A DNA stretch of 12,877 nucleotides from contig CADDYT010000170.1 of assembly GCA_902810755.1 (NCBI GenBank), forward strand, positions 1 to 12,877. Direction: 5' to 3'. Both the position numbers and the translations under genes were made by a program. The stretch's first letter is position 1; each line of letters begins with the position of its first letter. The DNA comes from Chloroflexota bacterium. Lineage in GTDB: Bacteria; Chloroflexota; Ktedonobacteria; Ktedonobacterales; Ktedonobacteraceae. Of this stretch, positions 2,416 through 5,348 are shown piece after piece. Under the pieces are notes generated by a model that saw only the letters and a program-made list of their open reading frames with translations, ran no database searches and was not told where the DNA came from.

Positions 2416-3819
2416 CTAACGCAGGGAAAAGATCGAGATTTCACTCTGCTCTATGGGCAATGGTTTGCGTTTGCGGACGTGAAACCAGTTGAAGAGGAAG
2501 GCGAGCGTTGCCAGCACAAAGCAGGCATCGCGCAGAGCTACCGTTTGCACGAAGCCGGGAACGTATGGGATAAGCAGGACGCTGGGCGCTCGCGTGTAGA
2601 GGTAGGCATAGATATAGGTGGTCAGGAAGGAGAGCGTTCCCCAGCAGAGCAGCCAGAAGCCGTCCAGCGCGCCGTTGTAGGCGAGCAGGGGCATGACCCA
2701 GATGAGATATTGCGGGCTGAAGACCTTGCCGGTGGCGATGAAGACGAGCAGGATAGCGATACTGGCCTGCGTCAGATCGAACTTTTTGCGCCATTGCAGG
2801 AAGAGAATGGTGATGAAGCCAAGCACAAGCGCCACATCGCCCACCGCAGATACAAAGCCGTCCAGTACGCTATCGATGTTGAGCGAGCCGTAACTGGAGA
2901 CAATCTTGACGGGAAAGCCAAAGGCGGTTGTCAGCCAGAGGAAGGTGCTACTGGTGGCCTCTACCTGCACGGGCCGGTGCAGGAAGTAGCTAAGCTGGCT
3001 TAGTACGGCCCCCTGAAAGTTCAAGAGCGCGAAGAAGCCGGTAATGCCCAGCGTGATAGCGAGGAAGATGAGCGTATTTTTCCATTTCCACCGGCGCAAC
3101 TCGCGCAGCGTTTGCCAGAGAACACCTGGAATAGCGCGCGCAGGCAGCGAGCGTGGCGGCGCAGCGAGCGTGCGCGCGTCGTATTGCTCGGCGAGAAAGA
3201 GGGCAGGCAGGAGCAGAATCGGGTAGAGTTTGAGCAAGACACCAAAGGCCAGGGCGATGTAGGCCAGAGCCCAGCGTTTCCGTTCGGCGGCGATGATACA
3301 GATGAGTGTACAGGCGGCGGGCAGAAGATCATAACGTCCCTCCGCCGTTGCCCACGCGCCCAGCAGAACATAAATGGCGAATGCCAGCGCGCCTCCACGC
3401 GGCCCGTAACGCAGCAAGAGCCAGTAGATCAGCACGGCGACCAGCGCCATCCAGATGGCGAAGACCAGTTGATAATACTGGATCGGAGCCAGCAGGGCCA
3501 GAGAGAACGGGAGCAGCGTAAACGGCGGATATTCCGTCGGCAGCATATGGAACGGCGGTTGGGCTGAGGTGATGCCCAGAAACTGGCATTGCGAGGCGGG
3601 CAGCAGGTGTGTTCCCCAGCTACCGAGCCAGAACGTGATAGCATAGCACTGATAGCGAGCGGCATCTGTACTCAGCCAGAGCATCTGCCAGGAGGCGCCG
3701 CTGAACATCAAAATAGTGACAACCACAATGGGTATATACGCAACGATGCCGCTTTGCGCCAGCAACGATTCCCAGATAGAAGGAGTTTTATACCTCTGCG
3801 AAATCTGTTCTTGCACCAA
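2416..3819 (-). CDS. GT87 (DUF2029-type) GT-C membrane glycosyltransferase
   Basis: A 467-residue polytopic membrane protein with about 10-12 hydrophobic helices. Features typical of the GT87/PimE-like polyprenyl-phosphate-dependent mannosyltransferase group are an Asp in the first extracytoplasmic loop (STDAARYQCYA, D52), TEYPPFTLLPF (E96-F105), AEGRYDLLPAA (R162-D164), FGVLLKLYPILLLP (K197-P200) and SPQYLIWVMPLLAY near the C-terminus. Such enzymes move a sugar from a lipid-linked donor onto an acceptor on the outer face of the membrane. The acceptor is unknown. The start is uncertain: a TTG at 3819 or GTG at 3816, with GGAGG at 3837-3833 and a nearer AAGAG box; no in-frame ATG fits. It is monocistronic, divergent from the peroxiredoxin and convergent with the MFS/CBM side. 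Confidence 0.8.
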   Translation of the reverse strand: MVQEQISQRYKTPSIWESLLAQSGIVAYIPIVVVTILMFSGASWQMLWLSTDAARYQCYAITFWLGSWGTHLLPASQCQFLGITSAQPPFHMLPTEYPPFTLLPFSLALLAPIQYYQLVFAIWMALVAVLIYWLLLRYGPRGGALAFAIYVLLGAWATAEGRYDLLPAACTLICIIAAERKRWALAYIALAFGVLLKLYPILLLPALFLAEQYDARTLAAPPRSLPARAIPGVLWQTLRELRRWKWKNTLIFLAITLGITGFFALLNFQGAVLSQLSYFLHRPVQVEATSSTFLWLTTAFGFPVKIVSSYGSLNIDSVLDGFVSAVGDVALVLGFITILFLQWRKKFDLTQASIAILLVFIATGKVFSPQYLIWVMPLLAYNGALDGFWLLCWGTLSFLTTYIYAYLYTRAPSVLLIPYVPGFVQTVALRDACFVLATLAFLFNWFHVRKRKPLPIEQSEISIFSLR

Positions 3820-3962: not shown

Positions 3963-4035
3963 CGGTAGTCACCTGTAACTCTGTGCGTATTTCTTTGTGG
4001 AAAAGCAGCAACTTGCTATGGGAGGATACGGAGCA

Positions 4036-4521
4036 ATGAGCAGTAACGCTCGTTCGGAGACAAAAACCTTGAAAGTCGGTGATGTCGCTCCCGACTTTAC
4101 TCTCAAGACCGCGACCCGGCAGGACTGGCACCTGGCGGACTTCCGGCATAAGAAAAATGTCGTTCTCGCTTTCGTGCCGTTTGCTTTCAGCCGTGTTTGC
4201 TCGGCACAACTTCCCTCATACGAGGCGGAGTTAGAGCGGTTCAAAGATGCTGATACCGAAATTGTCAGTATCAGCATGGATAGCCATCACGCACTCAACG
4301 CCTGGGCAAAGGCAATGAATACCTCGTTTCCCCTGCTTTCAGACTTCTACCCGCAGGGGCAGGTTGTCGATCTCTACGGTGTGCGGAACCCTCTGGGCAT
4401 GCCAGAACGCGCCCTGTTCGTTATCGACAAAGAGGGTGTGATCCGTTATATCGAAGTGATGAATTCCCCCGGTGACATGCCCGATAACGAGGATCTTTTC
4501 GAGGCATTACGTAAACTCTGA
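4036..4521 (+). CDS. 1-Cys peroxiredoxin, AhpE-like (redoxin domain)
   Basis: A 161-residue thioredoxin-fold peroxidase. Peroxiredoxins reduce H2O2, organic hydroperoxides or peroxynitrite in the cytoplasm through a reactive cysteine. The active-site pattern PxxxSxxC is present as PFAFSRVC (P48, S52, C55), and the N-terminal VGDVAPDFTL (14-23) is standard. C55 is the only cysteine in the protein, so it must be a 1-Cys enzyme resolved by an external thiol such as thioredoxin, mycothiol or bacillithiol. The length fits AhpE (about 153). I chose the ATG at 4036: a GGAGG at 4021-4025 lies 10 nt upstream, and that box overlaps codons of the longer GTG-started frame. It has its own promoter and is closed off downstream by an 18-bp-arm palindrome. 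There is no signal peptide. Confidence 0.9.
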   Translation: MSSNARSETKTLKVGDVAPDFTLKTATRQDWHLADFRHKKNVVLAFVPFAFSRVCSAQLPSYEAELERFKDADTEIVSISMDSHHALNAWAKAMNTSFPLLSDFYPQGQVVDLYGVRNPLGMPERALFVIDKEGVIRYIEVMNSPGDMPDNEDLFEALRKL

Positions 4522-4535
4522 TGAAGTGGCCCTAT

Positions 4536-4575
4536 CACCGTGCCATGCTGAGCCGCCGCTCAGCATGGCACGGTG
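4536..4575. repeat. Perfect palindrome between convergent genes, CATGCTGAG-core repeat copy 2
   Basis: Two perfect 18-nt arms (4536-4553 and 4558-4575) flank a 4-nt CGCC loop. The core CATGCTGAG is shared with the palindrome at 2323-2384. It lies 14 nt after the peroxiredoxin stop and 21 nt after the stop of the convergent selenoprotein gene, so it is placed to end or protect both transcripts. Neither side has a U-tract, so factor-independent termination is not assured. Confidence 0.75.
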
Positions 4576-4596: not shown

Positions 4597-5316
4597 TTAT
4601 TCTTCGCGATATGCTTCGCGCCAGCTATCGTCAGCGGTGTAGGCCGGGTATGGCTGTTCCCAGATACGGCCTGGTTCTTCTCTGGCCTCCCAGCGGCGCA
4701 GGGCGTCTTGCAACACCTGGCGCTGCAATTCTACCTGATGCGGACCGCCCAGACTGTTGCCCGGCTTAAAGTTCTGTGGATGGAAGGCGCGCGGTGGTCC
4801 AGCCTGCCGCGTTTCCTCCGGGAAGACCGTAATCATGACGGTAGGAATGCCGACCATCTCGATTTCGCGCTGGATTGCAACTGCAACCCGATGGCAGAGA
4901 GGTCAGCCGGCGGTCATGAGGACGGCATCGGCGTTGGAGCGCAGGATGAGTTTTGCCATTTCCGGCGCGACCTGCTCGTAGATCTCGCGCAGGCGCTGGC
5001 TATAACCCATAAAGCCCAGGTGCCTGCTGGCAACACCGCCGATGATGCCCCCGGCAGCCAGTTCGCGCAGCCGGTCGATGGGAAAAACGCAATTGATATC
5101 TTCGTCCGCATCATGATGATCATAATGGTCGTGAGTTACCATCAACTGCTCTGCCTGCACATCTCCCGGTAGCACGCGCCAGCTATTGTCGCCCTCGATA
5201 TTGAACGGCTCCTGCCCGCGCAGGTGGACGCCTGCCGTACTGACGAGCGCGAAGACACTCTGATGTAGCTCGCGCGAACGTGGCGTGTAGGGGATACACC
5301 GCTTTGACATTGGCAT
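4597..5316 (-). CDS. GrdB-family selenoprotein (glycine/sarcosine/betaine reductase selenoprotein B-like), TGA read as Sec
   Basis: I annotate one 239-residue protein with selenocysteine at residue 138 (TGA at 4905-4903). The N-terminal part matches the GRDB family: FALVSTAGVHL (22-32), then residues 62-86 beginning HDHYDHHDADEDINC and ending FPIDRLREL, and LGFMGYSQR. The TGA falls in VLMTAG-U-PLCHR, a UxxC redox motif at the place where GrdB has its Sec. After it the same frame continues (VAVAIQREIEMVGIPTVMI) for 101 residues to a TAA. Clostridial GrdB is about 430 residues, so this is a short family version; its substrate is unknown, and glycine reductase itself is not implied. An AGGAG box lies 9 nt before the ATG at 5316. 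It is the last gene of a four-gene operon, 32 nt after the esterase. The alternative is a nonsense-mutated pseudogene, which the intact downstream frame and SECIS-like hairpin argue against. Confidence 0.85.
4872..4905 (-). promoter_or_regulatory. Bacterial SECIS-like hairpin with its UGA codon
   Basis: Reading the coding strand, the UGA (4905-4903) is followed by 13 nt, then a perfect 7-bp stem GGGUUGC (4889-4883) / GCAAUCC (4878-4872) with one G-U pair, closing a 4-nt loop AGUU. The loop begins 21 nt after the UGA and has a G among its first two bases. Both fit the published general pattern of bacterial SECIS elements, which recruit SelB for selenocysteine insertion. The fold was made by eye. 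Confidence 0.7.
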
Positions 5317-5348
5317 ATGTGATTTCTCCTGTACGTTGAGCTATGTGT

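Follow-up and report, generated by a model that had tools for sequence, protein, structure and literature searches.

The window, that is, the whole stretch of 12,877 nucleotides analysed here (contig CADDYT010000170.1 of a Chloroflexota bacterium of the Ktedonobacteraceae), carries two apparent small genes which are in fact a single protein with an in-frame TGA, and this TGA very probably encodes selenocysteine (Sec). Judged by profile scores, the resulting protein of 239 residues is PrdB-like and has the normal length of the PrdB family, and it is encoded next to, and convergently with, an AhpE-like 1-Cys peroxiredoxin (Table 1). Gene neighbourhood across related genomes makes it probable that the function of the selenoprotein is tied to the peroxiredoxin, and leads us to propose, more tentatively, that it is a thiol/selenol redox partner dedicated to this neighbour and serves as its reductant.

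Table 1. Coordinates of the features of the window that are discussed in the text.
Feature	Position	Strand	Remarks
AhpE-like 1-Cys peroxiredoxin gene	3997..4521	+	PF00578, 117.7 bits; Rv2238c, E 1.8e-27; convergent with the selenoprotein gene
Codon of the only Cys (Cys68, counted from GTG 3997), peroxidatic position	4198..4200	+	Matching position is TGA in the peroxiredoxins of L019, L020 and L168
Inverted repeat, terminator-like	4536..4575		19-base arms, 2 central bases; between the convergent genes; symmetry checked, near-perfect
Predicted PrdB-like selenoprotein CDS	4597..5316	-	239 codons ending in TAA, TGA taken as Sec; the read-through scores 194 bits with TIGR04483
Candidate SECIS hairpin GGGUUGC-AGUU-GCAAUCC	4872..4889	-	7-bp stem, loop 20 nt after the UGA
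Codon of Cys141, second member of the UxxC pair	4894..4896	-	Invariant in 18 aligned members and in 60; codon checked
In-frame TGA, predicted Sec138 of the U-x-x-C motif	4903..4905	-	TGA in 12/30 and TGC/TGT in 18/30 relatives; sister L001 also TGA
AGGAG, ribosome-binding-like site	5326..5330	-	9 nt upstream of ATG 5316; direct sequence reading

The open reading frames of 137 residues (4903..5316) and 86 residues (4597..4857), both on the minus strand, lie in the same frame, and the original prediction that they are split by nothing but the TGA at 4905-4903 proved correct in its coordinates and in the 239-residue read-through. From 5316 down to 4597 the frame holds this single TGA, at residue 138 in the context TAGUPLCH, and the UxxC/CxxC active-site motif of PrdB is thus present as TAGUPLC. 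The 101 residues beyond the TGA, which had been described as open and protein-like up to a TAA, are indeed so: when each half is scored alone against the PrdB model TIGR04483, the N-terminal half matches at 20-147 with 125 bits and the C-terminal half at 151-233 with 50 bits, at consecutive profile positions, and over the aligned parts the two halves are 78.8% and 77.8% identical, respectively, to those of the nearest relative, L001, with synonymous differences saturated. Because both halves match PrdB in register, and because identity to L001 is kept despite saturated synonymous sites, coding across the TGA exceeds what chance would give. An AF2 model of the protein (pLDDT 93.5) places the UxxC motif at the N-end of helix 139-154, and the structure matches listed for it include no thioredoxin-fold entry.

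When family membership is considered, the assignment to the GrdB family holds at the level of the superfamily, since PF07355 (GRDB) is matched with 35.6 bits against a Pfam gathering cut-off of 22, and fails below that level, the protein being far nearer to PrdB (194 bits) than to the GrdB-type models (50-53 bits). The description as a short GrdB relative was accordingly rejected, as the protein is full-length for PrdB. With GrdB (selenoprotein B of glycine/sarcosine/betaine reductase; PF07355, TIGR01917) it shares a UxxC in the same place and a match to the C-terminal part of the profile (213-346 of 347), but it has 239 residues against the 431 of the TIGR01917 model, to which it scores 51 bits where the cut-off is 602; furthermore, no grd family was found among the window proteins scanned. 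The likeness to PrdB (TIGR04483) extends to length, PF07355-type sequence, a UxxC with Sec or Cys and the register of both halves, whereas the window protein differs in scoring below the curated equivalog cut-off of 300 bits, in having a peroxiredoxin gene as its partner, and in that no PrdA/GrdE companion was found in nearly all the relatives scanned. On this last point, PF09338 (PrdA/GrdE) was found in just one of 21 relative genomes and not in the other 20, in contrast to the prdB of Ligilactobacillus salivarius (L182), which lies inside a prdA-prdB-prdD-racemase cluster. These differences make it very unlikely that the gene encodes a genuine subunit of D-proline reductase, or of another PrdB/GrdB-type amino-acid reductase with an unlinked pyruvoyl subunit, even though PrdB is the nearest named family, tblastn identity to the PrdB-type genes in the 20 plasmid records listed is 40-44%, and D-proline reductase PrdB is the frequent annotation of the relatives in their sources. 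It is nevertheless important to stress that context alone is no proof here, since a Peptoclostridium plasmid prdB has no prdA nearby either. On balance, the name D-proline reductase probably misstates the function of the protein.

Relatives are defined here as genomes with at least 300 bits against an alignment of 18 sequences; there are 30 of them, 28 in a draw of 400 genomes of the G019 phylum (Chloroflexota) and 2 in a draw of 95 of the G020 phylum (Methylomirabilota), and they include the 21 of a first scan of the species-genome collection. An initial motif scan missed two of these 21, and full reading gave TGA in 10 and TGC/TGT in 11. The expectation that the column of the TGA would hold Sec or Cys in homologues was therefore borne out in 21 of 21 first-scan and 30 of 30 extended relatives, no other codon being found (Table 1). 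The machinery counts refer to ten TGA genomes, those within the first 21 relatives (the later TGA genomes G102 and G429 lie outside them): SelB exceeds its cut-off in nine, a tRNA-Sec of at least 60 bits is present in nine, SelA exceeds its cut-off in eight, and SelD is found in eight, each of these SelD matches having one in-frame TGA that, in five of six fetched sequences, occupies one site of a conserved motif. The misses are distributed over four genomes: G020 gave a sub-cut-off piece of SelB and no SelA, G021 a tRNA-Sec match of 48 bits and no SelD, G015 no SelA, and G012 no SelD; these gaps may come from incomplete assemblies. Sec machinery is present in most of the Cys-form genomes as well; in G017, one of the Cys-form genomes, none of SelA, SelB and SelD exceeds its cut-off and the tRNA match reaches 48 bits. 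A selD with an in-frame TGA occurs in eight genomes with a Sec-type PrdB-like gene (G001, G007, G011, G013-G015, G019 and G020) and also in G010.

Taken together, the column and the machinery found in most TGA relatives tested uphold the idea of an in-frame Sec codon in a protein of the GrdB/PrdB superfamily, and Sec coding in the PrdB-like family of these relatives is well supported. A tree of 201 sequences places the window gene and L001, a TGA relative, as sisters at a support of 0.866, with 108 Cys sequences alongside, and because of this pairing the TGA of the window gene is most simply explained as inherited rather than as a lone mutation; that read-through takes place in the window's own cell is what we infer from these comparisons. 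Two relatives should be read with care as records. In Ktedonospora formicarum (L018, 8415-8689) the C-terminal half changes frame and appears as two tblastn pieces, which reflects a frameshift in the gene or in the assembly, and L011, titled as a Proteobacteria MAG, is probably mislabelled, as its genome falls in the Chloroflexota-relative phylum draw and its gene groups with theirs.

A further question is how the UGA would be recoded. After the motif, all 12 Sec relatives encode Arg-[Thr/Ala]-Val-Val with the codons CGC-[A/G]CG-GTC-GT, which put CGGUCGU in the loop of an AUCGCA/UGCGAU-type stem, whereas none of the five Cys relatives with the same R-T-V-V uses CGC-[A/G]CG-GTC, a codon pattern that speaks for a SECIS in the Sec relatives (Fisher p 1.6e-4; this and the other Fisher p value given below overstate independence, as the relatives share descent). 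The stem itself gives no strong statistical signal: only two of the 12 Sec relatives fall below 5% in a synonymous recoding test, folding z-scores are ordinary (none below -1.6), and pair covariation does not rise above shuffles. Other PrdB-like Sec genes of the same phyla have, as judged by eye, hairpins of different sequence at about the same distance. The window reads CGG-GTT-GCA-GTT instead, and its alternative hairpin, which fits a bacterial SECIS in position and in its G-containing loop, is without the CGGUC loop of the 12 Sec relatives; with a folding z of -0.67 and 9% of synonymous recodings equally good, it appears as an atypical SECIS and is a candidate only. What looks like a recent switch from Sec to Cys is seen in L010 (8412-8461): this Cys relative retains a large part of the Sec-type stem sequence, but its loop has ACC GTC for ACG GTC.

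The loss of the conserved loop bears on a rather improbable alternative, namely that the gene is decaying in the window lineage, or that the TGA is a point mutation or sequencing error for TGC/TGT, so that a 137-residue product or nothing at all is made. The stretch HRVAVAIQ, which follows the TGA, is similar to that of Cys relatives such as L008, and the C-terminal half shows more non-synonymous change to L001 than the N-terminal half (0.177 against 0.120 per site), both of which speak for this alternative. The faster C-terminal half is, however, also seen against the Cys relative L172, which translates it (0.225 against 0.132), the sister L001 has the TGA too, the 101 codons beyond it are open, and the alternative hairpin, with a G in its loop 20 nt after the TGA, lies near the place that hairpins take, by eye, in other PrdB-like Sec genes.

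The surroundings of the gene had been described as a lipid/glycan-type operon, and this did not hold up across relatives: the depolymerase, acyltransferase and glycosyltransferase proteins of the same strand gave no match by tblastn at 1e-8 in any of the 21 loci of relatives, several of which are short. By this comparison the neighbour that appears conserved is instead the peroxiredoxin on the plus strand, and the inverted repeat between the two genes is likely to be a two-way terminator. The product of 3997..4521 has an AhpC-TSA domain and one Cys, with no resolving Cys, as in AhpE-like 1-Cys peroxiredoxins. Its closest solved relative is Rv2238c of Mycobacterium tuberculosis, which we take to be AhpE and which has its Cys in the same motif. 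AhpE is reportedly reduced by mycoredoxin/mycothiol, whereas the most constant neighbour of the window peroxiredoxin is the PrdB-like protein. In the peroxiredoxin genes of L019, L020 and L168 an in-frame TGA takes the very place of the peroxidatic Cys codon (TPV-U), and by the same reading both members of the pair would be selenoproteins there; the remaining 18 relatives whose peroxiredoxin was read have one Cys in it, as does the window.

An orthologue of the peroxiredoxin (at least 120 bits, a line set after the scores had been seen, the next score below it being 99 bits) is found in 29 of the 30 relatives, G021 being the one in which it was not found. The comparison set comprises 31 genomes hand-picked from the same two phyla, of which 19 have other PrdB-like genes and the remaining 12 have no match; the orthologue is present in five of the 31 (Fisher p 4e-11). 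The comparison genomes G054, G062, G096, G119 and G127 have a peroxiredoxin about 50% identical to that of the window and lack this PrdB-like branch. The two genes are less than 700 bp apart in 16 of the 30 relatives and within 4 kb in 22, against a chance expectation of 0.05; among the 16 closest pairs, 13 lie on one strand with the peroxiredoxin first and three converge like the pair of the window. In G003, G004, G018 and G350 the two genes are separated by 32-160 kb, and in G009, G011 and G302 they fall on different contigs. The one-strand pair recurs in Ktedonobacteria, in L019 from another class of Chloroflexota (from a class draw of 29 genomes, none of them among the Ktedonobacteria of the set), and in L020 and L168 from the Methylomirabilota phylum draw, and ten outer neighbours compared at seven of the pair loci mostly differ from one another, with a zinc alcohol dehydrogenase at two of these loci (L016 and L019). 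Within the Ktedonobacteraceae, closeness may be partly general synteny, because a relative of the window gene at 2416-3819 also follows the peroxiredoxin there. PrdB-like genes of these phyla that are more distantly related have a peroxiredoxin beside them in 1 of 42 and 1 of 47 loci, the two sets overlapping.

PrdB-like genes are by themselves common in these phyla. Matches of the PrdB/GrdB type, the window branch included, occur in 97 of the 400 genomes of the Chloroflexota draw and in 68 of the 95 of the Methylomirabilota draw, and the corresponding Sec genes (L074-L164 and the hit lists) number up to ten per genome (G177), nearly all of those listed having one TGA; outside the window branch they are rarely beside a peroxiredoxin where checked.

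Since a peroxiredoxin with a single Cys should need an outside reductant, and its most constant neighbour offers a UxxC pair, the two proteins can be read as a redox pair in which the PrdB-like protein is the reductant; that both members can be selenoproteins, and that PrdA/GrdE was not found in most relatives scanned, argues in the same direction. The single Cys of the peroxiredoxin would reduce the peroxide and become a sulfenic acid, which Sec138 of the PrdB-like protein would attack to form a mixed Se-S link; Cys141 would then resolve this link and release the reduced peroxiredoxin, and the Se-S bond left in the PrdB-like partner would in turn be reduced by a general donor, such as thioredoxin or a small thiol. 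That electrons pass between the two proteins, and in this direction, is what we infer from the pairing, and the reductant role is a plausible proposal held with some reserve. To our knowledge, the PrdB-type fold has not been associated with the reduction of peroxiredoxins. The suggestion made earlier of a possibly new reaction still stands, and the clue to it is the convergent peroxiredoxin, which the original prediction did not include.

It is a weaker and safer claim that the two proteins share a pathway. One form of it, which we hold to be less likely than the reductant role, is that the PrdB-like protein is a Sec/Cys redox protein acting in the same pathway as the peroxiredoxin, through peroxide stress or a common third protein or metabolite, without being its reductant, and that its electrons may flow to another substrate. 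The same co-occurrence and adjacency data would fit; a read-through model of the peroxiredoxin and the PrdB-like protein (pTM 0.62) gave no confident interface, and the other PrdB-like branches of the same phyla, which rarely have a peroxiredoxin neighbour, must act otherwise. Against it stands the outside reductant that a one-Cys peroxiredoxin should need, together with the UxxC pair in its most constant neighbour. Several results also weigh against the reductant role: the relatives in which the two genes lie far apart or on different contigs, the five comparison genomes with a similar peroxiredoxin and no such PrdB-like branch, and the structure matches listed, with no thioredoxin-fold entry among them. 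In addition, no fusion of the two proteins was seen among the best 120 of 221 proteins listed, the scored set being the 7997 candidates that share most words.

In the portions of the literature available to us, the two families have been recorded side by side. Marine metagenome surveys (PMC1088965, PMC2398784) include UxxC PrdB and TxxU peroxiredoxin as known selenoprotein families, with counts of 42 and 43, respectively, in the Sargasso data (PMC1088965) and of 235 and 253 in GOS (PMC2398784), and in the parts seen they treat them as separate families, with PrdB as a proline reductase. These similar marine counts (PMC1088965, PMC2398784) are a weak hint of a link, given that several other families count similarly, and would bear on the branch discussed here if the marine sequences belong to it. 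Both families are also listed, with no link drawn between them in the available parts, in PMC9312934, PMC1794560 and PMC5029168, while the operon list of a 2026 review, as far as accessible (PMC13188914), pairs peroxiredoxin with a SELENOW-like protein, a peroxiredoxin-like with an AhpD-like protein, and prdB with prdC, peroxiredoxin with PrdB being absent from it. No published link between PrdB and a peroxiredoxin was found in the literature searched, to which most subscription journals do not belong.

A wider reading, possible though bolder than the reductant role in the window itself, is that the whole Chloroflexota/Methylomirabilota “PrdB” branch consists not of amino-acid reductases but of separate enzymes without a thioredoxin fold that reduce 1-Cys (or Sec) peroxiredoxins, and that form with them a two-selenoprotein, peroxide-reducing pair in the Sec-rich members. 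Were this so, it could explain why PrdB stands beside the peroxiredoxin among the leading selenoproteins in surface-ocean surveys. The common automatic annotation as D-proline reductase PrdB would then be wrong for a selenoprotein branch of soil bacteria, which would also account for the appearance in aerobes of a name that belongs to an anaerobic enzyme of amino-acid fermentation. With so many Sec forms occurring next to Cys forms, the family is useful for studying selenocysteine loss, and, if the proposal is true, a group of single-Cys peroxiredoxins would gain a concrete and testable candidate for their electron donor.
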